The notes beneath the pieces are model-generated. The model saw nothing but the letters and a program-made list of their open reading frames with translations, ran no database searches and was not told where the DNA came from. From IMG/VR virus record IMGVR_UViG_3300050014_000790, positions 1 to 31,523 of that record: a DNA stretch of 31,523 bases; one strand, given 5' to 3'. Of the stretch, positions 1 to 31,304 are shown one piece after another. This DNA comes from a virus. Numbering within the stretch: the first letter of the stretch is position 1; each line of letters starts with the position of its first letter. The position numbers and the translations under genes are program-made.

Positions 1-66
1 GATTATATAATGATTGTAGATAAAGATTATTCTTTAATAAAAGACAAAATTAAAAATATATTATGA
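1..66 (+). CDS. C-terminal end of a probable homing endonuclease (partial)
   Basis: The frame is open from the first base and stops at 64-66, giving 21 residues whose core reads IMIVDKDYSLIKDKI. This closely matches the end of the PD-(D/E)XK homing endonuclease at 30405-31304 (IFILDKDYSKFYSI), so the truncated gene is probably a member of the same family. The stop overlaps the next start as ATGA (63-66), implying translational coupling. The catalytic part lies outside the window, so the assignment is an inference from a short tail. Confidence 0.55.
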   Translation, partial: DYIMIVDKDYSLIKDKIKNIL

Positions 67-2054
67 CTTTTTCTAGTTTAAAAAAGTGGGTATCAAAAGA
101 AAAAAATGATACCGGGATAACTGTTTTATTTCCAGGTTCATATAAACCCGCACACGGTGGCCACATTTCTCTAATTAAAAAATATAGCGATCATCCTGAA
201 GTTAATGAGGTTAAAGTTCTTGTTGGCCCGGGAATTCGTGATGGTATTACTCAGACTGTTGCCGTAGAGATTCTTCGTAAATTATGCGAGAATATGACTA
301 ATGTTAAAATTGTAGCTGTAACTTGGCCTTCTCCAGTTCTTACTGCTTATAAAATGATTCAGGAAGCTAAAGAAGGAACTTATGCACTTGCTGCTTCATC
401 TAAAGAGGAGGAGAATACTGATAGGATCAAAAGATTTGTAGAACAGCATGGTTCCAATGGCAAATTTAAAAGGTCTGGAATAAGTGTAAGAGAATTACCT
501 GTGGATATATCTCCGCTAACTTTTGTTGGAAGAAATGACAAATTTGAAGGGGAACCTATATCTGCTTCAGTTCTTCGTGAAGATTTAATGGCAAATGATT
601 TGGAACATTTTGTTACGGGTTATCCAGAAAATTCGGAAGAACAAATTAACTATGTCTATAATCGCTTAAAAAATATTGGTTCACTTACTGAAGAATTACA
701 CACATCAGGAACCCCAACAGTAAGTACCCCAACAACATGGCCAAATAATCCTTATAAATCCGCATTCCCAATTGTGGAAGATGATGACGAAGATGAAGAA
801 GTAAATGAATCACTTAAAATAAATAAAATGGCAGGAGCAGCAGGACATTTAATGTCACCCTGGGAAGCAGGAGATTTAAAATTTGGAGAAATTAAGGGGC
901 TTATTGAAAAGGCATTATCGGGTAAACTTGAAAATGCATCTGAAAAACTCGATGGTGCAAATTTACTTTTGACCTATCGTTGTAATGATGTCTATATTGC
1001 TCGTTCTTCAAAACATGTTCGCAATCATGGAGAAGAATCAATTAAATGGGATCTTATAGCAGAGTTTGTTAATACACCCGAAGCCAAAGAAGCTTATGGC
1101 AAGGCCGGAGCAGATTTTCATAATGCTTTCAAATCCGCTGATATTGATATTAAAAAAATATTTAACGAAGGAGAAAAATGGCTCAATATAGAACTACTTA
1201 ATCCTATGATGGAAAATATAGTTCCTTATGGTAATAGACAGCTCCGTATACACAATCTATGGGTGGTAGACAAAGCCGGAAAAACCACCGATGTTATCCA
1301 CAATGGCGAACTTGATCAGCTTGTAGAAGCTATAGGAAAAGTCCAAAATAGTGGAAAAATCGAAAGCACGCATATCATTGCTAAAACCAACAAAGTTCAA
1401 TTTAATAAAATAAAAGATTCAGAACTCATTAAAGAAAGCCTTCTCAAAAAGCTTCAAATGATAATGGACAAAAATCATTTGGATAACGAAAATACCATCG
1501 CTGATTATTTGTCGGAATCTTTTAAACCCATCATCAATGAATCCATATCTGACAAAGATCTTACTCAATCGCTCTCAAGAAGATGGGGTGCAGGGGATAA
1601 ATCAACATCTATAACCAAATTGCTTAAAGGAAAAGATGCGAATACAGTTTCATGGGTTAAAGAGATGGATGGAAAATCGGATCAGCAGGTTGGAGAACTT
1701 CTAGATCCTCTTGTAGAGATATTTTCTAATTTAGGTAATAATGTACTTCAAAATTTAGAGGGCATCTCATCTACTGAACCCGGCAAAACAAAAGAATCGA
1801 TTAAAAGGAAGGCAGAAGACGCTATTGAAAAGATAAGGGGATTTATGAATAATGAGAGTCAAGAAGAATATGAGAAAAAAACTCGTTATCTTGAAACTCA
1901 ACTTAAACGTCTTGTTCAAGCAGGTGGACTTGATGCAGTTGTTCCTCTTGAAGGAATCGTATTCGAGTATAATGGGAGAAATTTCAAACTTACAGGAAAT
2001 TATTTGCCAATTCTAAAGATCATCTCATTCTTCCGTTTCGGAAAGAATCAATAA
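63..2054 (+). CDS. Fusion of HxGH nucleotidylyltransferase and ligase-like (KxDG) domain
   Basis: 663 residues. Residues about 18-205 look like a cytidylyltransferase/NMNAT-type fold: the strand VLFPGSYKPA is followed by the nucleotide-binding HGGH at 31-34, and a later ISASVLR (166-172) fits the family's second ATP-binding motif. A Thr/Pro/acidic linker (about 206-250) leads to a second domain with EKLDGAN (Lys295), matching motif I (KxDG) of ATP-dependent DNA/RNA ligases and capping enzymes. LNIELLN (374-380) could be motif III, LEGIVF (629-634) motif IV and FKLTG (Lys642) motif V. A helical stretch of roughly 190 residues lies between III and IV. The fold calls come from motifs; the substrate is unknown. 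Phages often encode NMNAT-like enzymes of NAD salvage and RNA ligases, but I do not recognise this fusion. It is followed after 16 bases by thioredoxin, in an operon. The linker holds a VNES sequence (247-250) resembling a T4-type prohead-protease site. Confidence 0.7.
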   Translation: MTFSSLKKWVSKEKNDTGITVLFPGSYKPAHGGHISLIKKYSDHPEVNEVKVLVGPGIRDGITQTVAVEILRKLCENMTNVKIVAVTWPSPVLTAYKMIQEAKEGTYALAASSKEEENTDRIKRFVEQHGSNGKFKRSGISVRELPVDISPLTFVGRNDKFEGEPISASVLREDLMANDLEHFVTGYPENSEEQINYVYNRLKNIGSLTEELHTSGTPTVSTPTTWPNNPYKSAFPIVEDDDEDEEVNESLKINKMAGAAGHLMSPWEAGDLKFGEIKGLIEKALSGKLENASEKLDGANLLLTYRCNDVYIARSSKHVRNHGEESIKWDLIAEFVNTPEAKEAYGKAGADFHNAFKSADIDIKKIFNEGEKWLNIELLNPMMENIVPYGNRQLRIHNLWVVDKAGKTTDVIHNGELDQLVEAIGKVQNSGKIESTHIIAKTNKVQFNKIKDSELIKESLLKKLQMIMDKNHLDNENTIADYLSESFKPIINESISDKDLTQSLSRRWGAGDKSTSITKLLKGKDANTVSWVKEMDGKSDQQVGELLDPLVEIFSNLGNNVLQNLEGISSTEPGKTKESIKRKAEDAIEKIRGFMNNESQEEYEKKTRYLETQLKRLVQAGGLDAVVPLEGIVFEYNGRNFKLTGNYLPILKIISFFRFGKNQ

Positions 2055-2933: not shown

Positions 2934-3938
2934 ATGAGTCAAGAGAATTATGATGCTTTCTTAAATCCTGGTGTAGAAGCACCAGCAGCTTCAGCAAAAC
3001 AGACTGAAGAGTACAATCCATCCGCAGACAAAGGCAAAGGCGGAATCTACCAATCAATCATTCGTTTCGTTCCCTGGCATGTTGATCCAAAACACGGTTC
3101 AATCCAGGAAAAATGGGTTTCATATTTAGTTGATCCCCTAACTCAGCGTGGTCGTTATATTGACTGCCCTTCCTCGGTTGGAAAACCTTCACCACTTTCA
3201 GACATTTATTGGAAATTAAAGAAACACGAGAGTGTTCAGATGCAGAAACTTGCTCAGAACTTTTCACGTAGGCATTCATATGCTTCTTTAATCCAGGTCA
3301 TTCGTGATGAAAACAATCCAGAACTTGAAGGCAAGATTATGGTATTCCGTTATGGCGTAAAAATCTGGGAAAAGATTAATGCTGAACTTAAACCAGTTAT
3401 TGGTGAAGCTCACGATCCATTTGCAAGTTTAACCGGCAAGGCATTCGCACTTGTTATTACTAAGGTTTCCGGATTCAACAACTATGATCAGTCAAAATTT
3501 GTTGATAAAAGAATTCCTCTTTGTATCCCAAATGAACTTGGAAAACTTATTCCAATCACTCCTCAGAGCGATATGAAAGCTGTTTTCGAATGGGTAAAAG
3601 CTAATTCACCAGACCTATCCAAATACGCTTACAAAGAGTGGGATCAGGATACATTCGACTATGTTAACCACGTCATCTTATCTGTTACTGGCGAAGGCTC
3701 AGTTTCAAATAAATATGCCGGAATTGTTACCAAGGAAAATGCAAAGCCCGCTACTCAAGCACAGACTGCTAAGGCACCCGCCGGAAATGCAATCAGTGCA
3801 CAGGAAATTTCAATTGATAACCTTGACTTAGGTGAAGGTAATGCAATTGACGATCTTCCAGATTTCGATGCTCTTCCAACTGGACCAACCAATGTAAATG
3901 GGTTAGGTGACTTGGATGACATTATCGGTAACATGTAA
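2934..3938 (+). CDS. 32: Single-stranded DNA-binding protein, T4 gp32 family
   Basis: 334 residues (T4 gp32 has 301). Two blocks are diagnostic: ENNPELEGKIMVFRYGVKIW (about 123-142), matching the T4 block around ENEGKVFKYRFGKKIW, and KVSGFNNYDQSKF (about 178-190), matching KVSGFSNYDESKF. The C-terminus is Ala/Pro-rich and then acidic, ending GDLDDIIGNM like the T4 DDTDLDDLLNDL tail that recruits replication and recombination partners. The OB-fold core covers and protects ssDNA at forks and during UvsX/UvsY recombination. The region where T4 gp32 has its zinc ligands keeps only one cysteine (IDCPSS, about residue 82), so the zinc site seems lost. First gene of the replication operon; primase follows after seven bases. 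Confidence 0.93.
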   Translation: MSQENYDAFLNPGVEAPAASAKQTEEYNPSADKGKGGIYQSIIRFVPWHVDPKHGSIQEKWVSYLVDPLTQRGRYIDCPSSVGKPSPLSDIYWKLKKHESVQMQKLAQNFSRRHSYASLIQVIRDENNPELEGKIMVFRYGVKIWEKINAELKPVIGEAHDPFASLTGKAFALVITKVSGFNNYDQSKFVDKRIPLCIPNELGKLIPITPQSDMKAVFEWVKANSPDLSKYAYKEWDQDTFDYVNHVILSVTGEGSVSNKYAGIVTKENAKPATQAQTAKAPAGNAISAQEISIDNLDLGEGNAIDDLPDFDALPTGPTNVNGLGDLDDIIGNM

Positions 3939-3945
3939 TTAACCC

Positions 3946-5058
3946 ATGTCTGATACCCTACAAACTTTCGGAGAGGTGAATTTCGATTCATCTCTCTCGG
4001 ATGTTTTAGATGTAGCTGTAAGTCCTCAGGAATACAAGGACCGTGCAGTTAGTCTTCTACATTCCATAGTGGATCGTAGGTTTCCGAATGACAGAGCTAA
4101 AAGAGAAGTAAGAGCCCACACAGACAGAATAACATTTTCTTGCCCGTATTGTGGTGACTCTATGCAAATGTCTTGGAAGCAAAGAGGCAACATTATTTTA
4201 CAGGGTAAACACAAACATCACTTTAAATGTTTCAATTGCGGAACATACAAAGGTGTTAATGAATTTTTTCAAGACTTTCAGGTGGACCTCCAACTGGATG
4301 TTATAAATTACATTACACAAACTCAATCAGATTTTACAGGAACATCCCACTTTGCAAAGTATGATATATCTTTACTGTTGGATGTTAAAACAATAGAGGA
4401 ATATGCCATTGACAGACAGGAGATTAAAAAACGCTTCAATTTGGTTGAAGGAAAAGGATCTCCTGCCTGGACATGGTTAAATAGGAGACTTCAGTTTCAA
4501 GAGGACAAGTTTCTTTATAGCCCATCAAAAAATTATCTCTTGATCCTTAATCTTACCCCAAGTGGTAAAGTAATTGGATTTCAAAAACGAAATTTCGGGA
4601 AGTACCAAACTAAATATCTTACGTTTACACTTCCAACAATATACAAAATGATGGGGATAGTTAAAGAAATTCCCGTCGAAATTGATTCACTTTCCCCATT
4701 ATATGGAATTTGTTTCCTAGATTTCAATAAACCTATTACACTATTTGAAGGTCCATTGGATTCCTTCTTGCTGAAAAACTCTGTTGCAAACACAGGAGCT
4801 AATAAAGGATTTCCTATAGATTTACCATTACGGTATTTTTATGACCAGGATCCTACAGGCAAAAAGAATTCCATTAAAAAAATGAGTGAAGGATATTCGG
4901 TATTTTTATGGTCTAAATTTCAGAGTGCCGTGGGTTTTCCATATCGTAAAAAATGGGACTGGAATGACATTCTTATATGGGCTAAAGAAACTAATACCAA
5001 ATTACCGGATATAAGTATGTTCTTTAGTGATAATCAAATGGATTTAATTGATCTATAA
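3946..5058 (+). CDS. 61: DNA primase (zinc finger plus Toprim, gp61-like)
   Basis: 370 residues. An N-terminal zinc ribbon has CPYC at 66-69 and CFNC at 95-98, which recognises the template in this class of primases. A Toprim catalytic domain follows, with FEGPLDS (267-273, Glu268 the metal-binding acidic residue) and FYDQD (298-302, the DxD pair), then KKWDWNDIL (335-343), a sequence common at the end of phage and bacterial primase Toprim domains. It would make RNA primers for lagging-strand synthesis with a replicative helicase not present in this window. Position directly after gp32 fits a replication operon. Its stop overlaps the next start as TAATG. Confidence 0.88.
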   Translation: MSDTLQTFGEVNFDSSLSDVLDVAVSPQEYKDRAVSLLHSIVDRRFPNDRAKREVRAHTDRITFSCPYCGDSMQMSWKQRGNIILQGKHKHHFKCFNCGTYKGVNEFFQDFQVDLQLDVINYITQTQSDFTGTSHFAKYDISLLLDVKTIEEYAIDRQEIKKRFNLVEGKGSPAWTWLNRRLQFQEDKFLYSPSKNYLLILNLTPSGKVIGFQKRNFGKYQTKYLTFTLPTIYKMMGIVKEIPVEIDSLSPLYGICFLDFNKPITLFEGPLDSFLLKNSVANTGANKGFPIDLPLRYFYDQDPTGKKNSIKKMSEGYSVFLWSKFQSAVGFPYRKKWDWNDILIWAKETNTKLPDISMFFSDNQMDLIDL

Positions 5059-5234
5059 TGGAAAAGAAACTCACGACTAAATTAAGGTTTACCTTTGATA
5101 TAGATGAGGAAATTCCTGTTGTAGAAATTACTCCGCTTGATGAAAAAGATAGTAAGAAAAAAGAAATTATAATACTTAAGCCTAAACAAAATGGAAGAGA
5201 CTCCAGTTCAAACAGCAGTCCCCGACTCTTTTGA
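5058..5234 (+). CDS. Small hypothetical protein (58 aa)
   Basis: 58 residues starting at the TAATG overlap with the primase stop and running 44 bases into the next gene. The first 43 residues are charged (FDIDEEIPVVEITPLDEK, then a Lys-rich run and a short strand IIILKP). The Ser-rich last residues lie in the overlap and are probably constrained by the other frame. It fills an otherwise empty 132-base gap between primase and the UvsY-like gene, which supports its reality. Function not recognised. Confidence 0.5.
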   Translation: MEKKLTTKLRFTFDIDEEIPVVEITPLDEKDSKKKEIIILKPKQNGRDSSSNSSPRLF

Positions 5235-5727
5235 TGAGTTCATGAAGGATGTTCCAGATGTTGCTCCTCCAATAACACCTGATACAGATCCTGAAACACA
5301 ACCCGGAACAATGGCAGAAAGATTTCTTTCTGAACGTATTCAATGGACAGCCAAGATAAAAGAACTCGGAGGCAAGATGAAAAATATTGTCGATATGTCT
5401 TCTTTAATGACGAACATATATACGGAAAGACAGATCGCTGTAGAATATCATTACTATTTGCTTACTCTTTTACAGAAAGTGAATAAAAATTATAGAAAAC
5501 AATATGCTGAAAAATACGATTATTATACTTACAAATCTCAAAAGAGATTTCCCAATGAACGAAACAAAGAGATCCAGATTATGTCGGAACTCGGTCCTAC
5601 TCTTACCACTAAAGAAGCGTTAGAAAATCATGCAAAATTTATGGAAGATACTATAAAGACTGTTGATCAGGTCATATTTGGTATTAAGGCTAGAGTGGAA
5701 ATTGAAAATATGTTAAGAGGAAAATAA
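5191..5727 (+). CDS. uvsY: Recombination mediator, probably UvsY-like
   Basis: 178 residues, mostly helical. A Pro/acidic N-terminal extension of about 40 residues precedes the core. The C-terminal half, with KYDYYTYKSQKRF (about 108-120), a conserved KEIQIMSELGPTL block and the ending IKARVEIENMLRGK, follows the T4 UvsY pattern of a DYY segment, an acidic helix and a final IKxRxxxIxxMxxxxxGK. UvsY helps UvsX displace gp32 from ssDNA. Context supports the call: in T4 uvsW and uvsY are neighbours, and here UvsW lies two genes downstream and gp32 upstream. Identity is low, so this is a moderate-confidence assignment; no UvsX is in the window. The stop overlaps the next start (TAATG). Confidence 0.6.
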   Translation: MEETPVQTAVPDSFDEFMKDVPDVAPPITPDTDPETQPGTMAERFLSERIQWTAKIKELGGKMKNIVDMSSLMTNIYTERQIAVEYHYYLLTLLQKVNKNYRKQYAEKYDYYTYKSQKRFPNERNKEIQIMSELGPTLTTKEALENHAKFMEDTIKTVDQVIFGIKARVEIENMLRGK

Positions 5728-6089
5728 TGAAAGCAAAATATGTTTTTGAATCCGAGCAATTGAAGAATATAGCTATTACCCTTCCTGCTAAGACCGATTG
5801 GTCTGAATATCAAAAGGAATTGGATCTTGTCAAAGACTATTCGCATGTTCTAAATTTTAAAGTTCCTAATTTTCCGACAAAATCGGGGAAGGGACAGAAA
5901 TGCTACCTTAATTATCAAGGTAATATAATTGGATGGATGGAAATTGTGGGCTTCTCGGGAGAATCATTTGATTGTGAGGTCACAGGAAAAGATTGGGCAG
6001 GAAAATTTATACAACGTTCTGGGCCTTTTAACAAAATAAATCCTATTCCAATGAAAGGATTCAGAGGTTTTAAATACGTTGACCTGTAA
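5727..6089 (+). CDS. Conserved-looking phage protein of unknown function
   Basis: 120 residues, translationally coupled to the UvsY-like gene by TAATG. The C-terminal half is rich in aromatic and glycine residues with a pattern of short strands: GWMEIVGFSGESF, KDWAGKFIQRSGPF and PIPMKGFRGFKYVD (about 104-117). The small beta-rich shape is compatible with an ASCH/PUA-like or other RNA-binding barrel, but no motif proves it. No signal peptide or membrane segment. It is the last gene before a homing endonuclease inserted ahead of UvsW. Confidence 0.75.
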   Translation: MKAKYVFESEQLKNIAITLPAKTDWSEYQKELDLVKDYSHVLNFKVPNFPTKSGKGQKCYLNYQGNIIGWMEIVGFSGESFDCEVTGKDWAGKFIQRSGPFNKINPIPMKGFRGFKYVDL

Positions 6090-6139
6090 TGAAACCATAT
6101 AGAGTAAACTTTTAGCAAAAAAGTAAATAAAAATCTGAA

Positions 6140-6150
6140 TATATAAAATA
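6140..6150 (+). promoter_or_regulatory. T4-late-type promoter box (TATATAAAATA)
   Basis: TATATAAAATA ends seven bases before the start of the GIY-YIG endonuclease, within a 68-base intergenic gap. The same 11-base string recurs before the starts at 13416 and 18266. Transcripts starting just downstream would be nearly leaderless. Similarity to T4 TATAAATA is seen; promoter function is inferred. Confidence 0.5.
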
Positions 6151-6157
6151 AAAAGAT

Positions 6158-6949
6158 ATGTATTCTGGAATTATTTATTGTGCAATTTCTCCATCTAACA
6201 AGAAATATTATGGAAAAACAGTCAGATCTTTTAATAAAAGAATTTGGGAACATTCAAGAAACCAAGGAAATTGGGCATTTTCTAATGCTCTTAGAAAATA
6301 TGGAAAAAATTCATTTAAATGGGAGATTATTGAAAAATATGAATTTGATTTAGTAGAAAAATTAAATGAGGTATTAAACGAAAGAGAAAAATATTGGATA
6401 AAAAAAGATAAAACAAATTTAAAAGAATTTGGATATAACATGACTGATGGGGGAGATGGAACTTCCGGACATCATTATCAATTTTCAGAAGAACATAAAA
6501 AGAAATTAAGTGAATCTCATAAGGGCATATTATTATCTCAAGAACATAAAAACAATATAGGTATTTCTAATAGAGGGAAAGAAAAATCAGAAGAAGCTAG
6601 AAAAAATATGAGTATTGGAAAAATTGGTATTCAATTTTCAAAAGAGCATAAACAACATATTAAAGAATCTAAAACGGGAAATAAAAATCCAAATTGGGGA
6701 AAAGAGAGATCTCAAGAAACAAAAAATAGGATCGGAAAGAGTAATTTTGGGCAAAAGAGATCAGAAGAAACTTGTAAAAAAATAGGAATTTCAAAAAAGG
6801 AAATTAAAATTTCAAATGAACATAAACAAAAAATATCTAAATATCGAATGGGAAAATCCCATTCAGAAGAATCAAAAAATAAGATGAGAATAAAAGCATT
6901 CGAAAGAGAAGCAAAAAAACGTTTAAATAATGAAATTCAAAATAAGTGA
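6158..6949 (+). CDS. GIY-YIG homing endonuclease with NUMOD3 repeats
   Basis: 263 residues. The catalytic GIY-YIG domain is at the N-terminus: GIIYCAISPSNKKYYGKT (4-21) supplies both signature strands, then KRIWEH with the expected Arg, EREKYWI with the catalytic Glu, and the closing YNMTDGGDG. The C-terminal half is a tandem of NUMOD3-type DNA-binding repeats, each roughly FSEEHKKKLSESHKG or RSQETKNRIGKSNFG. Lys, Asn and Ser content is high, typical of these mobile genes. It is inserted between the 5727 gene and uvsW, and its 3' end overlaps the uvsW start by 20 bases. It is closely related to the endonuclease at 25617. Confidence 0.93.
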   Translation: MYSGIIYCAISPSNKKYYGKTVRSFNKRIWEHSRNQGNWAFSNALRKYGKNSFKWEIIEKYEFDLVEKLNEVLNEREKYWIKKDKTNLKEFGYNMTDGGDGTSGHHYQFSEEHKKKLSESHKGILLSQEHKNNIGISNRGKEKSEEARKNMSIGKIGIQFSKEHKQHIKESKTGNKNPNWGKERSQETKNRIGKSNFGQKRSEETCKKIGISKKEIKISNEHKQKISKYRMGKSHSEESKNKMRIKAFEREAKKRLNNEIQNK

Positions 6950-8477
6950 AGATAAAAATTTTTTGATTTTAGATGATTCAACAGCTCTAGAATATGATCA
7001 AATTTGTTCTTCCTTTACCAAGAAAATAGATAATTGGTATATCATAAAGCGTAAGAAGCCTTATTGGGATTGCGAAATCCATTTTATGGATCGCTATAAT
7101 AGAATTCCAAAAGGTCTCTGGGGTGAAGTGAAGACATTTGCGAAAAAGTTCAATTTTCCTTTACAGATTGAGGGAACTGAATATATTTGGAACCACGATT
7201 TTAAAGAAGACGAATTCGATGAATGGGTAGAACAGTTCTTTCCAGAACCCATTAATCCTGAAGATTTTTATCCAAGACCATACCAGATTGAGTCATGTAA
7301 AAGAGGATTGAAATTTCGTCTTTGTACTCAGGAAATTTCAACTTCCGGGGGAAAGACCCTTATTGCTTATATGATATTCCGTTACTTGTTTGATAAAGGA
7401 ATTATAAAGAGCATGCTTTATGTAGTTCCTAATGTCGACCTTATTGGTCAGACCGAAGAAAAATTCTATTTATATGAAGACATTTCAGGACATAAGCCAA
7501 ATTGGAAAAGCCAGTGTGTATTTTCTGGTGCAAGTAAAAAACAAGATAAAGATCCCAATATCATATTCGGAACCTACCAAAGCCTCTGCAAACGCGGACC
7601 CGAATATTTTGAAAAATTCGATATGGTTCTTATAGATGAAACCCATCATGCCAAAGCTAATTCAATTCAAAATATTCTAGTTAAGTGTTTTAATGCTCAA
7701 TATAAAATAGGGTTAACCGGTACTCTTCCCCCAGAAGGATCCTGTAGTTCATTTACAATTCAGTCTTATTTAGGACCAAAAGTTTATACGATTGCCTCAT
7801 CCGATTTGATTAATGAAGGCAGAGCAACTCCTGTAAACGTAGTTTGTATTGAACTCGATTACTTATCAGAAGAGAAGAAGAAATCTCTTTATGATCTCCG
7901 TGATGTAAAAACTGATGAGAAAGACGGAGTAAAACTTCTTAACCTAGAAAAAGAACTAGCCAGAGATAGTCGAAAGAGGTTAGTTTATATTTGTGAGATG
8001 ATTCAAAAAACTAAGAAGAATACATTGGTTTTATTTGCGGATATAAAACATGAGTATGGACGTAAGATTTATAATTGGTTAAGGGAAAATAGCGATAAAA
8101 GTGTTTATTATATTGATGGCGGAACTAAATTAGATAATAGGGATTTTTATAAGGAAAAAATGGAGAAAGACGAAGATGTAGTTTTAGTTGCATCTACTGG
8201 AGTTTTCTCTGAAGGTATTGACCTTGTAAACATACACAACCTATTTATAACTGAATCCTCAAAATCGGAGATTATTGTCAGACAAATGTTGGGTAGACCA
8301 ATGAGACTTATGAGTGGCAAGGATAAGGTTATAGTTATGGACTTTAGTGATAATTATTTCTGGAATGGACCAAATAAATTTCAACGAAAGAACTATTTAA
8401 TGAGGCATTCTTTAGAAAGAGAACGCATTTATAAGGAAAAAAAATTTCCATTTAAAAGATTTAAGATAAGACTTTAA
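6930..8477 (+). CDS. uvsW: UvsW-type SF2 helicase
   Basis: 515 residues (T4 UvsW has 503). Superfamily 2 motifs in order: Q/motif Ia region YPRPYQIES (114-122), Walker A STSGGKT (137-143), DEAH-type box DETH (236-239), motif III LTGT (262-265), motif V FSEGID (426-431) and motif VI RQMLGRPMR (451-459). An N-terminal domain of about 110 residues with aromatic and basic residues matches the UvsW substrate-binding domain. UvsW unwinds R-loops and branched intermediates and helps the switch from origin-dependent to recombination-dependent replication. The start at 6930 lies inside the upstream endonuclease gene. The 3' end overlaps the convergent endonuclease by 17 bases. Confidence 0.92.
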   Translation: MKFKISEDKNFLILDDSTALEYDQICSSFTKKIDNWYIIKRKKPYWDCEIHFMDRYNRIPKGLWGEVKTFAKKFNFPLQIEGTEYIWNHDFKEDEFDEWVEQFFPEPINPEDFYPRPYQIESCKRGLKFRLCTQEISTSGGKTLIAYMIFRYLFDKGIIKSMLYVVPNVDLIGQTEEKFYLYEDISGHKPNWKSQCVFSGASKKQDKDPNIIFGTYQSLCKRGPEYFEKFDMVLIDETHHAKANSIQNILVKCFNAQYKIGLTGTLPPEGSCSSFTIQSYLGPKVYTIASSDLINEGRATPVNVVCIELDYLSEEKKKSLYDLRDVKTDEKDGVKLLNLEKELARDSRKRLVYICEMIQKTKKNTLVLFADIKHEYGRKIYNWLRENSDKSVYYIDGGTKLDNRDFYKEKMEKDEDVVLVASTGVFSEGIDLVNIHNLFITESSKSEIIVRQMLGRPMRLMSGKDKVIVMDFSDNYFWNGPNKFQRKNYLMRHSLERERIYKEKKFPFKRFKIRL

Positions 8478-9219
8478 ATTTACATTTTTCGCCATGAAAC
8501 TGGCCATAATTTCCTGGGTCCAATTCTCTCAAACAATATGGACATAAAATTTTATCAGGTTTTTTTCTAGTTTGGCAAGCTGTTTTCATGTGATCAATTT
8601 GTTCATCCGTTCTTTTTTGATCTTTTAAAGATATGGAAGCTTTTTCAGCTCGCTTTATCATTTTTTGTTCTGCTATTTTTTCTCCGTATTTTTCTACCCA
8701 TATAGAATAATTGGATTTTCCATACATCGGATTTTTTTCCCCAACTAATTTTCCCTTTCTTTGTTTTCTCCATTGTTTTTTAGTTTCCTCGCTATGGTGT
8801 TTTCCAAAATTTGGACATAATTTTCCGGTTTTTCCAAACATAAAACTATTTGGACCTAATTTTAATTCTCTTTGCAATTTTTTAGTTTTTTCAGAATGTT
8901 TTTTTCCAAACATTCCATTTTTTTCTCCCGAATTAGAATTTTTTAGTTTTTGTATGGTTTCTTCGCTATGGCATCCTTGAACCCCAATTCCGCCAGTAGG
9001 ACTTATATTATATCCATTTGGAACCAGAGTATTGAATTCTTTAATGTATTTTTCTTGGGCATCCGAAGCTTCCTTTCTAATTTCAAACCATTCTAAAATT
9101 TCTTTGAAGAAATTAGATTTACCATATTTTTTTATAGCATTTTTAAAAATATCTCCGCTTCCTATATAATATTTTTTTTCATTAAAATTAGTTGTCAAAT
9201 ATACATAATGTTTTTTCAT
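8461..9219 (-). CDS. GIY-YIG homing endonuclease with NUMOD3 repeats and a C-terminal zinc knuckle
   Basis: 252 residues on the minus strand. The N-terminus YVYLTTNFNEKKYYIGSG gives the two GIY-YIG strands (Tyr-Val-Tyr in place of Gly-Ile-Tyr), followed by DAQEKYIKEFNT with the catalytic Glu and GYNISPTGG. NUMOD3-like repeats (CHSEETIQKLKNS, KHSEKTKKLQREL, HHSEETKKQWRKQ) follow, and the tail has CPYC plus a later His and Cys, a possible zinc finger. Closest relatives in the window are the endonucleases at 12886 and 14054. It is inserted convergently at the end of the uvsW operon, overlapping uvsW by 17 bases, so it leaves the helicase intact. A TATA-like box lies ten bases upstream of its start. 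Confidence 0.92.
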   Translation of the reverse strand: MKKHYVYLTTNFNEKKYYIGSGDIFKNAIKKYGKSNFFKEILEWFEIRKEASDAQEKYIKEFNTLVPNGYNISPTGGIGVQGCHSEETIQKLKNSNSGEKNGMFGKKHSEKTKKLQRELKLGPNSFMFGKTGKLCPNFGKHHSEETKKQWRKQRKGKLVGEKNPMYGKSNYSIWVEKYGEKIAEQKMIKRAEKASISLKDQKRTDEQIDHMKTACQTRKKPDKILCPYCLRELDPGNYGQFHGEKCKFKVLS

Positions 9220-12885: not shown

Positions 12886-13335
12886 GTGCCAAACTATCCT
12901 AAAATGGGAAAAAGATTACAAAAACCTGCTCAAACAAAAAAATTTAACTACGTTTACATTACTACCAATTTAATTAACGGCAAACAATATATTGGCGATC
13001 ATTCATCAGATATGCCAAATGATGGTTATTTGGGAAGCGGAAGACTCATTGCAAAAGCAATTAAAAAACATGGCAAAGAAAATTTTAAAAAAGAGATTTT
13101 AGAAAATTTTCCTACAAAAGACCAATCTTTTAATGCTCAAGAAAAATACATTAAAGAATACAATACACTAAATCCGAAGGGATACAATATTCATTTGAAG
13201 GGAGGATGGGATCCATTTTTAATTTTAGATTCTCCGATAAGATCGGAAAAATATTTAGAATCACTTAAAGGAGTGCATTATTCCCCTAGCGAAGATCCGG
13301 TAATACATATTCCATTTAAGCACGTTCAAAGATAG
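12886..13335 (+). CDS. GIY-YIG homing endonuclease, catalytic domain only
   Basis: 149 residues from a GTG at 12886; an ATG at 12904 (MGKRLQKPAQ) is an equally good start. The GIY-YIG core is intact: NYVYITTNLINGKQYIGDHS, then LGSGRLIAKAIKKHGKENF, NAQEKYIKEYNT with the catalytic Glu, and GYNIHLKGG. It is very close to the enzyme at 14054, but where that one continues into NUMOD3-type repeats this one has about 40 residues of unrelated sequence (WDPFLILDSPIRSEKYLESL onward). It may be a minimal or degenerate endonuclease that has lost its DNA-binding half. It lies between the divergent secreted-protein gene and the 13416 operon. Confidence 0.85.
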   Translation: MPNYPKMGKRLQKPAQTKKFNYVYITTNLINGKQYIGDHSSDMPNDGYLGSGRLIAKAIKKHGKENFKKEILENFPTKDQSFNAQEKYIKEYNTLNPKGYNIHLKGGWDPFLILDSPIRSEKYLESLKGVHYSPSEDPVIHIPFKHVQR

Positions 13336-14053: not shown

Positions 14054-14578
14054 TCAAAAATCCAGCAGTGCTGGATTTTTTGTTTTGTTTTTATTCCAGG
14101 GAATTTGTCCAGTTTTCTTTCCTTTATTAACATTGGGGGTTCCCTTATTAATCTTTTTTAAAATATTTTTTTGGCCTTCTGTCATAGGGATTCCTTTATT
14201 CCAAGGAATCTGATTTTTATTATAATCTTTACCAATATGAGATTTACTCATCTTATCTCGAGTTTCTTTTGAAATGCTATCCTTTGCTTGATGACCGCCT
14301 TTAGGACTTATATTATATCCATGAGGTTTTAAAGTATTGTATTGAATAATATACCTTTCTTGAGCATCAAAAGCTTTTTGTTTTGTTGGAAAAAATTCAA
14401 GAATTTCTCTTTTAAATTTTTTTCGGCCATATTTTTTCCTTGCATTTTCGAAATAATTGCCACTTCCCAAATAGTTTTTTGTATGCCAACAATTTAAATC
14501 ATCGGTAGAATGATCTCCAACATACTGTTTTCCATCAACAATATTGGTAGTAATATAAACAAAGTTAAATTTTTTCAT
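14054..14578 (-). CDS. GIY-YIG homing endonuclease
   Basis: 174 residues on the minus strand. KKFNFVYITTNIVDGKQYVG gives both signature strands, followed by NYLGSGNYFENARKKYG, FDAQERYIIQYNT with the catalytic Glu, and GYNISPKGG. A short DNA-binding tail has NUMOD3-like pieces (ISKETRDKMSKSHIG) and two copies of a QIPWNKG/QIPWNKN element. The catalytic domain is clearly paralogous to those at 12886 and 8461. It is inserted convergently behind the 13416 operon, and its final codons are embedded in that operon's terminator. Confidence 0.92.
   Translation of the reverse strand: MKKFNFVYITTNIVDGKQYVGDHSTDDLNCWHTKNYLGSGNYFENARKKYGRKKFKREILEFFPTKQKAFDAQERYIIQYNTLKPHGYNISPKGGHQAKDSISKETRDKMSKSHIGKDYNKNQIPWNKGIPMTEGQKNILKKINKGTPNVNKGKKTGQIPWNKNKTKNPALLDF
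14056..14085 (+). terminator. Intrinsic terminator of the 13416-14037 operon
   Basis: An 11-bp perfect stem, AAAAATCCAGC at 14056-14066 with GCTGGATTTTT at 14070-14080, has a three-base loop and is followed by TGTTTTG. It lies 18 bases after the small gene. The same bases, read on the other strand, encode the last residues (PALLDF) and stop of the convergent endonuclease. Confidence 0.85.
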
Positions 14579-14702: not shown

Positions 14703-16490
14703 ATGCTAAATACGCTAAATCAGATTTTAAAAAAAGAAGGATCCGAATACGTAGACAGATTACTAAGTGAAAATGTTATTATCACTGAAAAACTCGATAC
14801 CTATCGCATCCTTTTTGAAAATGTCGATGGAGAAATCAAATTCTTCAAGAAAGATAACACTGAACTAGAATTAATAGAAAGAGTTCTTACCAATATTTGG
14901 GAAGATGCTATTGTCGAATTGTCTGTCATATTAGAAGAACACAAGGATTCCCTTCCTCAAGGAGTTAGATTTGGTCTAGCTTATACCCCTGTTGAAAAAC
15001 CAATAAGACTTATCTATAAATCTATACCTGCTTATATCCTTACAGATATAACTACTCGTAAGAATAATAAAGTAGTTCACGTTTATGATGAAGCTTCTGT
15101 TTTTGAATGGGCTACCGCATTAAGTTTAGGAAGACCTCCAGTTATTTTTCAGGGAAAACTGAACGAAGATCAAAAACGAACTCTTATATCCTATGCTTCA
15201 GAGTTTACAGGAGATGAAAAGCCTCTTTCAGATATGCTTAAAGAAAAATTTCAGGGAACATACTCTAATGAACAATTAATAGAGGGAATAATTATCAAAA
15301 GTGGGGATAGACTTGCTCAAATTGTTTCTTATGAATTTGATTTATTAAACGAACAATATGAAAAGGAAGAATTTTCTAGGGATTTTTATGATTTAACTAT
15401 CATGAATCTTAATTCCTTCCTTGACAAGTATAATTTTCCAATTCTTGAAGGAAAAAATCCGGAAGATTTATATCTAGAGATGGTTTGCGATATTTTCAAC
15501 AATTATTGTGAAAATTCATCAGTAACTGAAAACATGTTGCCAGAATATCTTACCCCTCCAAAATTTGGGTATAATGGAGATCTCAATACATTACTACTTA
15601 AGAATAAAAAGACAATAAGTATACTTGAAAATGGAAACAAAGTTCATGAATCCATATTTAAAGTAATACTTTCATCATTAAGAAAATACAAAAAAGAATA
15701 CGGTCTTCTTAACGAAGCTGCTGTTCAGAAATTTAATACCTATGTTTATCTCATCAGCGAAAAGATGAATAAACCTCTAGATCCTCCAGAAAACATTGTA
15801 GCAATCAATGAAGCTCGTTCTGAAAATATCGTTGTTGATGCTGTTAATAAGAAAATGGCGTCGGACATCGATAACATGAGAGTTATTGCTTCAATTCAGA
15901 AAGCTTTCGAACCTAAGGGCGAAGACATGGCAAAAGGAAAAGAAAAATGCGTAGTTTATCTTACCGAATTCCGTCCATTTACCCAAGCTCAAGCCGAGAA
16001 TATCCTTGGAATGCAAAAAATGTGGAATTGTCCAGTTGTTTTAGCTTCCATCGAGAACAGACGTAGGGTTACAGGTGAGAAGTTTTTCTTTAGCGATAAC
16101 TTAATGAAAGCTCAGATTAAAGCTTTTGCTGATGCCAATAAGGAAGCAGTTCCTGCTTATTTTGTTTTATCTGACTGGGATCTTTACGGAGTATTTAATT
16201 TTTGTCGACCAAGATTCGAACCTGCAGCAATCATTACAGATAAAGGTAAAAAAGCAGACTTGGTTCTTCAACTTTACTTTGAAGAAGAAATTATGAGCCA
16301 ACGATTAGGCGTTATTAAAGATTTCAACATTGGGGAAATGGAGAACAAAGATCAGTTATTGGCCTTCAGATCTATTGAAGACAACGTATTTTATAACTTC
16401 AAGGAACTTGTTCCCCCTTCTATTTTGGGACTTTATGATTCAATGCAATCCGAATGGAAAACATGGAATGGAAAAATTCTTAGAAAATAA
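14703..16490 (+). CDS. Ligase-like domain fused to an HxGH-type nucleotidylyltransferase-like domain
   Basis: 595 residues. The N-terminal part has ITEKLDTYRILFE (27-39), matching ligase/capping-enzyme motif I K-x-D-x-x-R with Lys30 as candidate AMP acceptor, and LIEGIIIKS (192-200), matching motif IV. A helical middle leads to a linker with VAINEAR (366-372). Residues about 413-585 resemble a nucleotidylyltransferase Rossmann fold: CVVYLTEFRPFTQAQAENIL (416-435) aligns with the first strand and loop of the protein at 63-2054, but its H-x-G-H is replaced by T-x-A-Q, so catalysis by this domain is doubtful. Domain order is the reverse of that protein. It has its own promoter region and is followed after 28 bases by the 16519 gene. 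Substrate unknown; the ligase-like call is from short motifs. Confidence 0.65.
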   Translation: MLNTLNQILKKEGSEYVDRLLSENVIITEKLDTYRILFENVDGEIKFFKKDNTELELIERVLTNIWEDAIVELSVILEEHKDSLPQGVRFGLAYTPVEKPIRLIYKSIPAYILTDITTRKNNKVVHVYDEASVFEWATALSLGRPPVIFQGKLNEDQKRTLISYASEFTGDEKPLSDMLKEKFQGTYSNEQLIEGIIIKSGDRLAQIVSYEFDLLNEQYEKEEFSRDFYDLTIMNLNSFLDKYNFPILEGKNPEDLYLEMVCDIFNNYCENSSVTENMLPEYLTPPKFGYNGDLNTLLLKNKKTISILENGNKVHESIFKVILSSLRKYKKEYGLLNEAAVQKFNTYVYLISEKMNKPLDPPENIVAINEARSENIVVDAVNKKMASDIDNMRVIASIQKAFEPKGEDMAKGKEKCVVYLTEFRPFTQAQAENILGMQKMWNCPVVLASIENRRRVTGEKFFFSDNLMKAQIKAFADANKEAVPAYFVLSDWDLYGVFNFCRPRFEPAAIITDKGKKADLVLQLYFEEEIMSQRLGVIKDFNIGEMENKDQLLAFRSIEDNVFYNFKELVPPSILGLYDSMQSEWKTWNGKILRK

Positions 16491-20804: not shown

Positions 20805-21134
20805 GAGCCGAAACTGTAAATTTTGAAAGAAACAATAATCCTAGAGCTATGCTTGGGGTTGGTGGCATCAATTTTAATAAGAAATTCAATGACTTGTTTG
20901 AAGAATCAATGAAATCATTAGAAGGAAAAACCATCACAGCTCGAATGATTAGACATTGGACTGAAAAAAGGAGATAAAGATATTTATCTTTCTTTGTGGG
21001 TTTTAGATGGAGACGGTAACAGATATGATTTAGGAGTATTAGATAAAAAGATTTACATAGATTAATGGAAAGAATTTACTTTATCCAAGGGGTATAGAAA
21101 AACACATAAAAATTGGATTTTACATGAAAGCTGA
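20801..21134 (+). pseudogene. Broken small gene: frameshift in A6 run plus in-frame stop
   Basis: The intact first part (20801-20977, 58 residues, MRAETVNFERNNNPRAMLGV) starts with the ATGA overlap and carries the shared PxxMLGVG motif; earlier in-frame starts such as the TTG at 20768 are unlikely. It ends at TAA 20975-20977. Shifting by one base at the A6 run (20964-20969) opens a coding-like continuation, GDKDIYLSLWVLDGDGNRYD and so on, to TAA at 21063-21065; past that stop the same frame gives WKEFTLSKGYRKTHKNWILH and ES, then TGA at 21132-21134. That last stop overlaps the HAD gene start exactly as the HES-ending 19808 gene overlaps 20400. So an original gene of about 110 residues seems to carry two lesions. 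A sequencing error in the homopolymer, or slippage at the A6, could account for the first but not the second. Confidence 0.65.
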
Positions 21135-21684
21135 AACAGTAAGAGGAAAATTAATTAAAAAATGTTATTGTTTTGATCTCGATGATACCCTTATTAAAAC
21201 CGATGCAAAGACAAAGGTTTATAAAAGAGGAAAGTATCTTCGATCCTTATCTGCTGCAGATTTCAATACATTTGTTAAACAGCCAGATGAAGAATTAGAT
21301 CTTTCAGATTTTAAAGACCCCAAATTTATCATCAATGCTAGAAAATTTAAAATGTGGCCTGCTCTTTATAATATAAGTATGGCAGTTCAGCAAGGTAAGA
21401 GCCAATCGGATATTTATATCCTTACAGCTAGATCTTCCCACGTTAAATCAACCATACATAGTTTTTTTGAAAAAAATCACGTAAAAATTCCAGTGAACAA
21501 TATCATTACAATTGGTGATGATGCTGGATTGATAAATATTGCAACAGTTAAAAAAGAAATACTCAGGGATTTGAAATCTCGCTATGATGAGGTGACATTC
21601 TTTGATGATAGCCCCGAAAATATTAAAATGGCATCAGAAATCGGAGGAATTCGTACCCGCTTGATAGATGCCGTGAATATATAA
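21124..21684 (+). CDS. HAD-superfamily phosphatase
   Basis: 186 residues. Motif I is FDLDDTL (17-23; first Asp the nucleophile, second the acid/base), motif II is ILTARSS (about 99-105, Thr), motif III is likely the Lys of VKKEIL (about 141-146), and motif IV is FFDDSPENI (about 159-167, metal-binding Asps). The cap is small. This arrangement resembles the phosphatase domain of phage polynucleotide kinases and related nucleotide phosphatases, so a 3'-phosphatase or nucleotidase is possible; the substrate is not determined. It starts MKAETV, like 20400 and 20801, and its start overlaps the end of the broken gene. Confidence 0.88.
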   Translation: MKAETVRGKLIKKCYCFDLDDTLIKTDAKTKVYKRGKYLRSLSAADFNTFVKQPDEELDLSDFKDPKFIINARKFKMWPALYNISMAVQQGKSQSDIYILTARSSHVKSTIHSFFEKNHVKIPVNNIITIGDDAGLINIATVKKEILRDLKSRYDEVTFFDDSPENIKMASEIGGIRTRLIDAVNI

Positions 21685-25616: not shown

Positions 25617-26270
25617 ATGATTACGATGGTAAATGGAATCATTTATTGTGCAATATCGCCATCCAATAAAAAATATTATGGCTATTCATCTTTAAGTCTT
25701 GAACAGAGAAAAGCAGGACATAAGGATAGATTGTTGAGAGGATGCAAATCCCGTTTCTTCTCAGCTATAAGAAAATATGGATGGGGAAAATTTAAATGGG
25801 AAATTATTGAAGAGTTTACGGCGGAAGATAAAAAAGAATTGCATAATATTTTATGTGAACACGAAACTTATTGGATTGATAAGGATAGGACTTATCTAAA
25901 GGAATATGGGTATAATATGACTCATGGGGGAGATGGCAGATTGGGATCCGAAATGTCAGCAGAAACCAAAGATAATTTAATAAAAAAGTTAACTGGAAGA
26001 TCCACGGAGAGAAAGGGAAAATCATTTAAATCTGAAATGATTCAAAAATATGGGGAGAAAGAAGGGATCAAAAAATATAATGATTGGATTAAAAAAACAG
26101 CCGATTCTCATTGCAAACCAATATTGCAATTAGATAAGAATGATAATTTTATAAAGGAATGGCCATCAATAAAAATGGCTCATGATAATGGATTCGAAGG
26201 TACAAATATATGTGCTTGCTTAAAAGGAAAAAGAAAAACCCACAAAAAATATAAATGGAGGTATAAATAA
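25617..26270 (+). CDS. GIY-YIG homing endonuclease with a NUMOD1-type tail
   Basis: 217 residues from ATG 25617; an ATG at 25626 (MVNGIIYCAI) is an alternative. GIIYCAISPSNKKYYG is identical to the start of the enzyme at 6158, followed by GHKDRLLRG, CEHETYWID with the catalytic Glu, and YNMTHGGDG. Unlike that enzyme the C-terminus is a NUMOD1-like module: PILQLDKNDNFIKEWPSIKM, then NICACLKGKRKTHKKYKWRY. It sits immediately before the polymerase gene, with its stop overlapping the polymerase start as TAATG. A GGAGG at 26258-26262 inside its last codons is one of the few Shine-Dalgarno-like sequences in the window and lies eight bases before the polymerase ATG. Confidence 0.92.
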   Translation: MITMVNGIIYCAISPSNKKYYGYSSLSLEQRKAGHKDRLLRGCKSRFFSAIRKYGWGKFKWEIIEEFTAEDKKELHNILCEHETYWIDKDRTYLKEYGYNMTHGGDGRLGSEMSAETKDNLIKKLTGRSTERKGKSFKSEMIQKYGEKEGIKKYNDWIKKTADSHCKPILQLDKNDNFIKEWPSIKMAHDNGFEGTNICACLKGKRKTHKKYKWRYK

Positions 26271-27718
26271 TGGTCGTGAATATAGAGCAGAGGAAAGGAA
26301 AGCTCATAATTTCCCATATCAATAAAGAGGGAAAAGTGGCTTTTATGCAACTGAACATTCCGCCTGCCCATCAATATGTATATGTTTATAACAGACAGAG
26401 TTATGGGTCAATGACAGGTATCAAATCTTGGGATAAAAAATCAGTTCGAAAAGTTCCATCAGAATTCCTTTCACGTTATCGTATTCAAGAGTTCCTTATG
26501 GATGCTGGAACAGAATTAACAGCACCATTATTTGAACGTAATCCCCCTCAGCTATACTCGTGTGACATCGAGGTCGATGTAGAAGAGGAAACAGGTTTTC
26601 CAGAAGCTAGCGAAGCTGCAAACAGAATTAATACTATTGCATGGAGTCATTATCCCGATGTAACAGTCTTCGGACTTAAACCTCTCGATGGGCCAGCTTG
26701 TGATCGTATTGAGAAGGGGATAAACAAACACTTGGAAAAGATTGGTAAAGAATATAAATTTGTCTACAAAGTATATCAAAATGAAGCCGATATGCTTTAT
26801 GATTTTCTTTACAATTATGCTCGTCATGCACCACTTATAACCGGATGGAACTTCTGGAATTATGACTGGAGATATATTACAAATCGTTGTAAAAAACTCC
26901 ATATTGATTATTCTTGGATGAGTCCTACCAAACAATGGTACAAACATAAAATAATGGATCGCAATGAACGTGTAGATCTTATGCTACCTCAGCATAAATT
27001 GATTGTTGACTACATGGAGATCTATAAAAAATGGGACAGAAATATTGATCCAAAAGAAAATAATTCCCTCGAATTTACTGCTGAAGCTGCTTTAGGAATT
27101 ACTAAAGTGAAGTATCCCGGATCATTTACAGATCATTACAAAAAAGATTTTGAAGATTATGTTCTTTATAATGCTATTGACTCTATTCTTGTAGAAGGAA
27201 TTCACGAGAAACTTAAAACCATGGGGACTTTTCTTGGTTTGGGTAATATTACAGGAGTTGAAGCAATGAGTGCTTGGTCCCCAATAGCAATGTTGGAAGC
27301 AACTGCAGCTCGATATGGATATAAAAGAGGCGTTGTATTTCCTCAAGCAAAGTATGATAGGAAAAGGGAAAGTTACGAAGGAGCTTTTGTATTTAAACCA
27401 ACTCCCGATTTGTATGGATGGGTAGCTTCTTTTGACTACGCATCTCTTTATCCTTCAATCATGAGGCAGTTTAAAATCTCAATTGAAAACTTCATTACAA
27501 AAGATAAAAACTTTAAAACCAAACCAAATGAAATTAAATGTTCTTCAGGAGCAGTTTTTGATGCCTCAGAAGAACCTCTTTTGCCAGAGATTCTTACTGA
27601 TTTTTATGCTCAAAGAAAAGAGGCTCAAAAAATTACTAAGGAAGCAGAAATGGATGTAATCGAACTTGAAAAGATATTAAAGAAAAGAGAGATGCAGTCA
27701 TCCGAGGCATTTAAGTAG
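26270..27718 (+). CDS. 43: N-terminal half of a family B DNA polymerase (split gp43)
   Basis: 482 residues, about half of T4 gp43 (898). The 3'-5' exonuclease is complete: Exo I SCDIEV (Asp99, Glu101), Exo II GWNFWNYDWRY (Asp199), Exo III YNAIDSIL (Asp304). Polymerase motif A is present, FDYASLYPSI (Asp389). The chain stops after REMQSSEAFK, just where motif B (KxxxNSxYG) should follow; neither it nor motif C (DTDS) is found in any frame downstream within the window. Spacing of the motifs matches T4. Several T4-like phages have gp43 divided into two polypeptides near homing endonucleases, so the second half probably lies elsewhere in the genome. A frameshift or nonsense mutation is less likely since no continuation is seen. 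The upstream endonuclease is coupled by TAATG. Confidence 0.9.
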   Translation: MVVNIEQRKGKLIISHINKEGKVAFMQLNIPPAHQYVYVYNRQSYGSMTGIKSWDKKSVRKVPSEFLSRYRIQEFLMDAGTELTAPLFERNPPQLYSCDIEVDVEEETGFPEASEAANRINTIAWSHYPDVTVFGLKPLDGPACDRIEKGINKHLEKIGKEYKFVYKVYQNEADMLYDFLYNYARHAPLITGWNFWNYDWRYITNRCKKLHIDYSWMSPTKQWYKHKIMDRNERVDLMLPQHKLIVDYMEIYKKWDRNIDPKENNSLEFTAEAALGITKVKYPGSFTDHYKKDFEDYVLYNAIDSILVEGIHEKLKTMGTFLGLGNITGVEAMSAWSPIAMLEATAARYGYKRGVVFPQAKYDRKRESYEGAFVFKPTPDLYGWVASFDYASLYPSIMRQFKISIENFITKDKNFKTKPNEIKCSSGAVFDASEEPLLPEILTDFYAQRKEAQKITKEAEMDVIELEKILKKREMQSSEAFK

Positions 27719-30410: not shown

Positions 30411-31304
30411 TTTTCTTGTGACCCTATTAAATGTTTAGAATGTGGAAAAGAATTTCCTTATTCTAATGGTTATTTTGTTTCTCATATTCGTAAAGAACAT
30501 AATCTTACCCTTCGACAATATGTTGTAAAATGGGAATATAATAATGAAGAAAATAATATTCCGAAATGTTCCTGCGGATACTGTGAAGAACCTGTTCCTT
30601 TTTATCGAGGTAATTTTCTGATTGGTCAAAAATTAAGAAAGCACCAAAATCCAGATTGGTTAAAAAAACAATATATTCAAAAGTATGGAATACCATTATG
30701 CGATTCTTGCAAAAAAGAAAATGATAATTTTCATAGAGGAATTCCACGAAAAAATTGTGAAAAATGTGTGGAGGAAGGAAAAATTAATCAGGGAGATAAA
30801 TCCCCATTTAATACTTCGTATAAATCAACAGAAACAATGAAGAAAAGATATGGAGTTGAAAATCCGGGTCAGCTGGAAATAAATAGAGAAAATTCTTCAA
30901 AAAGAATGAGCAAATATAACTCAGAATGGAAGAAAAACCATACCATACGAAAATACAAAGATACTGAATTATATTATCAATCCTCCTTTGAATATGATTT
31001 TTTGGAATTATGCGTCAAATGGGGTATTATTAATAGAATACAAAACGGCCATTCTTATAATTATCTTGATGAAGATAGAAAATTTGGTATTCGTTTAATG
31101 ACAGATTTTTCAATTGATAACTATGAGATTGAAATAAAATCATCTTATATCATGAAAAAACAAGGAGGAATAGAATCTGTGTTTGCAAAGAAAAAAGCTG
31201 TAGAATCGATAGGGAAAAAATATATCTTTATTCTGGACAAAGATTATTCAAAATTTTATTCCATTACTAAAAGCGATATATTATTCGGACCGACTTGTGT
31301 CTGA
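30405..31304 (+). CDS. PD-(D/E)XK homing endonuclease with zinc-finger N-terminus
   Basis: 299 residues. The first 45 residues form a MucR/C2H2-like finger: CLECG (10-14), His27 and His32, then LTLRQYVVKW. More Cys pairs follow at 55/57/60, 99/102 and 118/121. A central TMKKRYGVENPGQLEINREN (144-163) is a DNA-binding element common in phage homing enzymes. The C-terminal nuclease domain has SSFEYDFLEL (Glu196), MTDFSI (Asp234) and EIEIKSSY (Glu243, Lys245), the PD-(D/E)XK pattern, then IFILDKDYSKFY. It lies 74 bases after RNR behind a start-codon hairpin. Its 3' end overlaps the convergent partial gene by 49 bases. It is probably related to the truncated gene at the left edge. Confidence 0.85.
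   Translation: MDFSCDPIKCLECGKEFPYSNGYFVSHIRKEHNLTLRQYVVKWEYNNEENNIPKCSCGYCEEPVPFYRGNFLIGQKLRKHQNPDWLKKQYIQKYGIPLCDSCKKENDNFHRGIPRKNCEKCVEEGKINQGDKSPFNTSYKSTETMKKRYGVENPGQLEINRENSSKRMSKYNSEWKKNHTIRKYKDTELYYQSSFEYDFLELCVKWGIINRIQNGHSYNYLDEDRKFGIRLMTDFSIDNYEIEIKSSYIMKKQGGIESVFAKKKAVESIGKKYIFILDKDYSKFYSITKSDILFGPTCV

Follow-up and report, generated by a model that had tools for sequence, protein, structure and literature searches.

Combinations of a ligase-like domain with an HxGH-type nucleotidyltransferase (NTase) are already present in databases of phage sequences, as families without a function. The cyanophage unit of DUF6267 (PF19782, T4-GC 71) and a cytidyltransferase (phrog_395) occurs in S-PM2 as a single protein of 591 aa (S-PM2d138), with DUF6267 at residues 5–398 followed by CTP_transf_like at 414–554. 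Hundreds of cyanophages encode the two components side by side, as overlapping neighbours, with DUF6267 directly upstream of the NTase in P-SSM4, S-CAM3 and many others, and a DUF6267 relative is present in 470 records. A family with the NTase in front of the ligase domain, here called 663-type, includes the Mel-JY01 protein WWT39297.1 ('cytidylyltransferase like protein'), members in LR756508 and in many IMG/VR phages, and the product of nt 63–2054 of the DNA described below.

The window (the complete 31.5 kb IMG/VR fragment analysed here) carries a T4-like replication cluster with genes for a gp32-like SSB, UvsW and DNA polymerase B. Besides its 663-type protein it encodes a 595 aa protein, and the proposal of an earlier note, that these two proteins combine the same two fold types in opposite order (NTase–ligase in the 663 aa protein, ligase–NTase in the 595 aa protein), was borne out by Foldseek, VIA and AlphaFold2. 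The features are as follows.

63–2054, plus strand: 663 aa partner, HxGH NTase (about residues 18–208, HGGH intact) plus ligase domain
2934–8477, plus strand: replication cluster common to the relatives (gp32-like SSB, primase-like, UvsW), from gene order and Pfam (gp32, helicase)
14703–16490, plus strand: 595 aa pseudo-ligase/pseudo-nucleotidyltransferase protein, entire ORF (ATG start, 595 codons)
14712–15350, plus strand: predicted Rnl2-type RNA-ligase nucleotidyltransferase fold, residues 4–216 (Foldseek, VIA, hhalign)
14790–14792, plus strand: Lys30 at the motif I position; EKLDT in place of the expected KxDG (Lys30-Leu-Asp32, with Thr33 replacing Gly; alignment A3)
14979–14981, plus strand: Ala93 at the motif III Glu position (alignment A3)
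15282–15284, plus strand: Glu194 of Glu194-Gly195, motif IV (EGIIIK; alignment A3)
15318–15320, plus strand: Gln206 at the motif V Lys position, 12 residues past Glu194
15378–15764, plus strand: helical domain common to the 595 family, residues 226–354 (alignments A1 and A3, helices of the model)
15771–15935, plus strand: linker of low confidence, residues 357–411 (pLDDT below 50)
15936–16457, plus strand: predicted HxGH nucleotidyltransferase fold with its active site gone, residues 412–585 (VIA; BLASTP to the LR756500.1 relative)
15981–15992, plus strand: TQAQ (residues 427–430) replacing (T/H)xGH; FRPFTQAQ begins at residue 423 (TLGH in the LR756500.1 relative)
16347–16370, plus strand: KDQLLAFR (residues 549–556) replacing ISxSxxR (ISASVVR in the LR756500.1 relative)

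Predicted folds and motif losses of the 595 aa protein

A full-length relative of the protein was found by tblastn of 2.3 Gb of phage records in LR756500.1, a 462 kb metagenomic phage (E 5e-27, 97% covered, 24.7% identity), a match that can be taken as beyond chance; the relative is labelled L012 below. The ORF is open across both halves, which share 21–28% identity with L012, and its third-position GC resembles that of neighbouring genes. In a protein tree of the family the window protein had no supported placement.

The AlphaFold2 model was built from the window sequence and IMG/VR relatives; its confidence is moderate (mean pLDDT 64, with the NTase half supported by two sequences only), and it consists of two compact parts, whose folds are both well supported. 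Its closest full-length structural match is A0A6J5NWC5 (BFVD; 623 aa, E 3.7e-29, 20% identity), an uncharacterised cytidyltransferase-like protein of an uncultured Caudovirales phage. The model also aligned with the 591 aa cytidyltransferase-like protein of S-PM2 (Foldseek E 8e-7, 695 columns), while DUF6267 (PF19782) gave no match to the 595 aa protein at E values up to 10. The invariant residues of DUF6267 (K36-x-D38-G39, E274-G275 and K285) have a ligase-like spacing, and its profile found no matches in the PDB. Because hhalign profile comparison with ligases was not significant, the ligase ancestry of DUF6267 is regarded here as likely though unproven, and a common descent with the N-terminal half of the 595 aa protein as a lead.

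Residues 4–216 of the model matched T4 Rnl2 (2hvr_A, Foldseek E 6.3e-8), and VIA comparison with PDB structures gave Z scores of about 11 to T4 Rnl2 and the Naegleria RNA ligase. By hhalign, bona fide Rnl2-like ligases of phages also aligned with this half (94%, E about 1e-7), although the protein misses the curated cut-off of PF09414 (13.3 bits vs 27). The two N-terminal motifs reported in the earlier note are both present: ITEKLDTYR, containing Lys30, begins at residue 27 and IEGIIIK at residue 193. Scored against the PF09414-type motifs, the protein retains the Lys of motif I and the Glu of motif IV, and is without the Glu of motif III and the Lys of motif V, the latter position being set by its spacing of +12 relative to the Glu of motif IV, a distance common to all the 663-type ligases compared. 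The motif V lysines of ligases touch the ATP phosphates.

Motif loss is not confined to the window copy. In alignment A3, the motif I position is K in the window, in L018, in the L025 group and in Lak, N in L012, and D or N in the Mahaphage type. Motif III is Glu in most Mahaphage-type rows, Gln in L012, L018 and L025, and Ala in the window; the motif V Lys is present in L012, L018 and L025 and absent from the Mahaphage-type rows. None of the 22 rows combines the motif I Lys, motif III Glu, motif IV Glu and motif V Lys, and the ligase half is degenerate family-wide, around a conserved helical domain. This had been missed in the earlier note.

Residues 411–585 gave VIA Z scores of 12.0 to NadD (4x0e) and 11.8 to PPAT (5h16) over 153–154 residues. 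The C-terminal half was undetected by Pfam (PF01467), and is linked by BLASTP (E 1e-12) to that of L012, which clears the PF01467 cut-off (E 1.8e-7), matches NadM (2qjo) and retrieves members of the cyanophage 'cytitidyltransferase' family from 409 phage records. Where L012 has GRFQPFTLGH and ISASVVR, the window protein has EFRPFTQAQ and KDQLLAFR, and its NTase half is almost certainly dead. The decay of the HxGH site had been recognised from the sequence, and the ISxSxxR motif is lost as well; the description of the site as lacking both His needs correction, since the relative has TLGH, so that a single His was to be expected and the lost pair is Gly-His. As the ORF has stayed open over both halves at 21–28% identity, the dead NTase half has been kept in evolution. 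An open, foldable domain without its catalytic motifs is what would be expected of the structural or regulatory half suggested previously.

The predicted structure of this domain resembles HxGH enzymes (Z 11–12). A direct, sequence-only comparison with the 663-type NTases reached only 0.4%. With L012 as a bridge, hhalign of 595-type against 663-type NTases reaches 90%, only around ISxSxxR. The two NTases of the window are not close sisters: that of the 663 aa protein groups with the L080-type and Lak NTases and that of the 595 aa protein only with L012, and transfer of an NTase between the two window genes was dropped as an explanation.

The 663-type ligase and the distribution of the two genes

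The NTase of the 663 aa protein (residues 16–210) matches PPAT (Z 14.5), and its ligase-like part matches T4 Rnl2 (Foldseek E 9e-4) and keeps motifs I (KLDG), IV (EGIVF) and V (KLTG). These three motifs were found in 97 of 97 663-type sequences, a count that is circular for motif I because the pattern used to collect the sequences contains it. The ligase domains of the 595 and 663 families are not recognisably close (profile comparison 4.6%).

Directly before the ligase domain, 58 of 69 distinct 663-type sequences have (I/L)xE with G, A or S as the next residue; shuffled sequences gave about 7, and control stretches 1.5%. Examples with (I/L)xE-G are L080, L018, L025 and L153; the window copy is without the site. 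The prohead proteases of T4 and giant phages cleave after Glu (PMC9026906), and the motif may mark a prohead-protease-like processing site, the evidence being suggestive only because the 663-type sequences are related. Some 663-type proteins (L127, L159, L009, L129 and L133) have further fusions and resemble polyvalent phage proteins: a zeta-toxin-like P-loop kinase occurs among them (Pfam for L127), and by eye there is a ParB-like part in L009 and L129 and an HNH-like insert in L129 and L133.

Genes of the 595 type were found by an alignment-based search at 68 IMG/VR loci, most of them encoding about 440 aa without the NTase; the same search with the single 595 aa sequence gave no matches. 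The family was absent from the bacterial and archaeal genomes scanned and was seen only in phages. In L025, L027–L030 and L079 the 595-type proteins are 1,021–1,174 aa long, with a long variable tail.

The window and its nearest relatives (L012, L018 and the L025 group) all carry a 663-type ligase in the same cluster as the 595-type gene. The order SSB–primase–UvsW–…–ligase–595-type is shared by LR756500/L012, L018 and the L025 group, and the SSB, primase-like and UvsW genes precede the 663-type ligase in all but the L012 fragment. The ligase usually lies directly upstream of the 595-type gene, with about 30–170 bp between them, the exceptions being L018 (2.3 kb) and the window (12.6 kb). As the ten loci include many near-identical ones, they count as four independent lineages. 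The 663-type ligases of the window's relatives carry no NTase. An NTase on the 595-type protein occurs, among the nearest relatives, only in LR756500/L012 and the window; in the L025 group and L018, neither of the two genes showed one. What is constant in this clade is an intact ligase beside a pseudo-ligase; the NTase is optional.

Outside this clade the pairing breaks down. Mahaphages and Lak have a 595-type gene, also without the NTase half, and no detectable 663-type ligase; the two genes are therefore not obligately paired. The co-occurrence anticipated in the earlier note consequently holds for the four lineages of close relatives and fails for Mahaphages and Lak. Conversely, no true 595-type match came from 14 records that hold a 663-type gene or an NTase relative; the only hit of the A3 profile among them, a 220 aa protein of LR756508, is an ordinary RNA ligase (PF09414 E 6.5e-30), a match that speaks for the ligase ancestry of the 595 family. 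Lak does carry a 663-type NTase as a separate protein (E 1e-25 to the window's 663-type NTase); in Lak-B5 this is a 207 aa protein (L011:14986–15609), nearest to the 663-type NTases, in a phage without a detectable 663-type ligase.

Mahaphages and Lak encode other RNA and DNA ligases. The 663/595 pair was considered as the main DNA ligase and rejected for LR756500, Mahaphages and Lak, since these have further DNA ligases of the ATP or NAD type; Mel-JY01 and LR756508 gave no clear match to either of these DNA ligase families.

Several other features of the neighbourhood were recorded. Five related GIY-YIG-type endonuclease genes cluster together by sequence (6158–6949, 8461–9219, 12904–13335, 14054–14578 and 25617–26270), the assignment being confirmed by Pfam for 14054–14578, and one such gene immediately precedes the 595 gene, on the opposite strand. 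DNA polymerase B (26270–27718) ends early (PF00136 positions 25–144 of 453), before a ribonucleotide reductase gene. LR756500 has a similar polymerase break (L001:18989–20407 and 30709–31479), where the second polymerase-like piece further on looks intein-interrupted, and its ribonucleotide reductase (L001:22362–26533) seems to be interrupted by a sequence resembling a split intein, the two halves flanking a homing-endonuclease-like gene. A HAD-type protein of the window (21124–21684) has a weak match to PNK 3′-phosphatase (PF08645 E 0.0076) and is possibly an RNA-end healing enzyme near the ligase genes.

Possible roles of the 595-type protein

The reading we favour, with roughly even confidence, is that the 595 aa protein is a double pseudoenzyme and a non-catalytic partner of the intact 663-type ligase from the same gene cluster. 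In the window's lineage, a scaffold made up of an Rnl2-type ligase and its helical domain would have been joined to an HxGH NTase scaffold, and both sites would have become degraded. The product could serve as an adaptor, a substrate-end binder or an allosteric subunit of the 663-type ligase, which would itself perform adenylate transfer and sealing, while an HxGH NTase, where present and intact, might make or recycle a nucleotide cofactor (e.g., NAD+ from NMN) or activate the substrate. The computation shows the two predicted folds, the missing motif residues, the intact motifs I, IV and V of the partner family, the adjacency of the genes in the relatives and the optional nature of the NTase; we infer a physical interaction of the two proteins, a helper role with regulation of the ligase, a nucleic-acid substrate, the substrate of the NTase and its supply of NAD+ or another cofactor. 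The earlier note had seen the two domains as a functional pair, a wider idea strengthened by phages that fuse them in either order or encode them as overlapping neighbours; in the note's own wording it is not supported, the ligase half being itself degenerate and the NTase optional. Against a partner role, Lys30, Asp32 and Glu194 remain, and 12.6 kb separate the two window genes. The 595-type gene is also kept by Mahaphages and Lak, in which no 663-type ligase is detectable, so the protein may there have a role independent of a 663-type partner, or another ligase may be used.

A less probable reading, to which we still give appreciable weight, is that the family was co-opted as a structural or scaffold component of the virion or its assembly, with no need of a ligase partner. 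The Mahaphage and Lak members, in which the NTase half, the 663-type ligase and several ligase motifs are gone and the helical domain is conserved, would fit such a role, as would the detection by mass spectrometry of relatives of the C-terminal NTase in virions of S-CREM2, S-SZBM1 and S-SCSM1 (PMC10665884, PMC9146016, PMC9602691). The authors of two of these three proteomes accept, however, that enzymes of this kind could be carried over because of high expression and not be cargo; in the window's clade the gene is moreover placed in a replication cluster next to an intact ligase.

It is unlikely that the ligase half is still active, with Lys30 taking AMP, an unusual substrate being modified or sealed, and only the NTase half dead. 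Lys30, Asp32 and Glu194-Gly195 are present, and the Lys is shared with L018, the L025 group and Lak; but Ala93 and Gln206 occupy the positions of the motif III Glu and motif V Lys, and other relatives have N or D at the Lys30 position. Decay of the window copy into a gene without function, to which the two degraded sites and the low identity to relatives might point, is very improbable given 595 open codons, an end-to-end alignment with a relative at 24.7% identity and a third-position GC like that of neighbouring genes.

If the favoured partner role is correct, the retention of a pseudo-ligase next to a working ligase would rank among the uncommon phage examples of regulation by a pseudoenzyme. 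We raise only tentatively, as a broader and rather doubtful generalisation, that there is a so far undescribed module for processing nucleic-acid ends in T4-like and huge phages. An Rnl2-like ligase and an HxGH NTase would always belong to it, either as neighbouring genes or as a fusion in one order or the other, and some versions would add a kinase or a ParB-like, Pol-beta-like or nuclease-like part; it would be partly packaged in virions, and one huge-phage clade would have added a pseudo-ligase/pseudo-NTase regulatory subunit. DUF6267 is a family without known function, and the phage cytidyltransferase found in virions has no known role. Viewing the DUF6267 unit, the 663-type and the 595-type proteins as one ligase–NTase module would give them a testable function, nucleic-acid end activation and sealing and perhaps NAD+ recycling, in which a coupled NMNAT and ligase could regenerate NAD+ from the NMN released by an NAD+-using ligase. 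Genes that rank among the most widespread unexplained ones in marine T4-like phages would thereby gain a candidate function.

Other gene arrangements were noted by eye. The gene preceding the NTase also shows KxDG and EGVI or EGVV in Stenotrophomonas phage Ps15 and Xanthomonas phage X1, and its kinship to ligases is putative. Pol-beta NTase-, PD-(D/E)XK nuclease- and ParB/Srx-like genes surround a standalone NTase in L207, L208 and L010, and the 907 aa protein of immuto combines a Pol-beta-like part with an HxGH NTase, in both cases without Pfam support.

The ligase-like plus HxGH NTase architecture is not unique to the window protein. No description of a pseudo-ligase/NTase phage pair was found in the openly accessible literature and, as far as that literature shows, what is new is the variant in which both halves are degenerate and an intact ligase lies in the same cluster. 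Like S-PM2d138, the 595 aa protein has an N-terminal domain of the KxDG/EG kind followed by a C-terminal HxGH NTase fold, with matching order and lengths, whereas DUF6267 keeps KxDG, EG and K and its NTase keeps TxGH. As in T4 Rnl2 and PF09414 ligases, a nucleotidyltransferase fold is followed by a helical domain, with Lys30 and Glu194 at motifs I and IV; unlike them, it is without the motif III Glu and the motif V Lys and falls below the Pfam cut-off. The C-terminal half resembles NadD, NadM/NMNAT and PPAT (PF01467) in predicted fold, but the window copy has neither xGH nor ISxSxxR. With the 663-type family it shares both folds and, in the window's clade, a genetic neighbourhood; it differs from that family, in which the NTase precedes the ligase and motifs I, IV and V are intact, in its reverse domain order and in the loss of motifs III and V.
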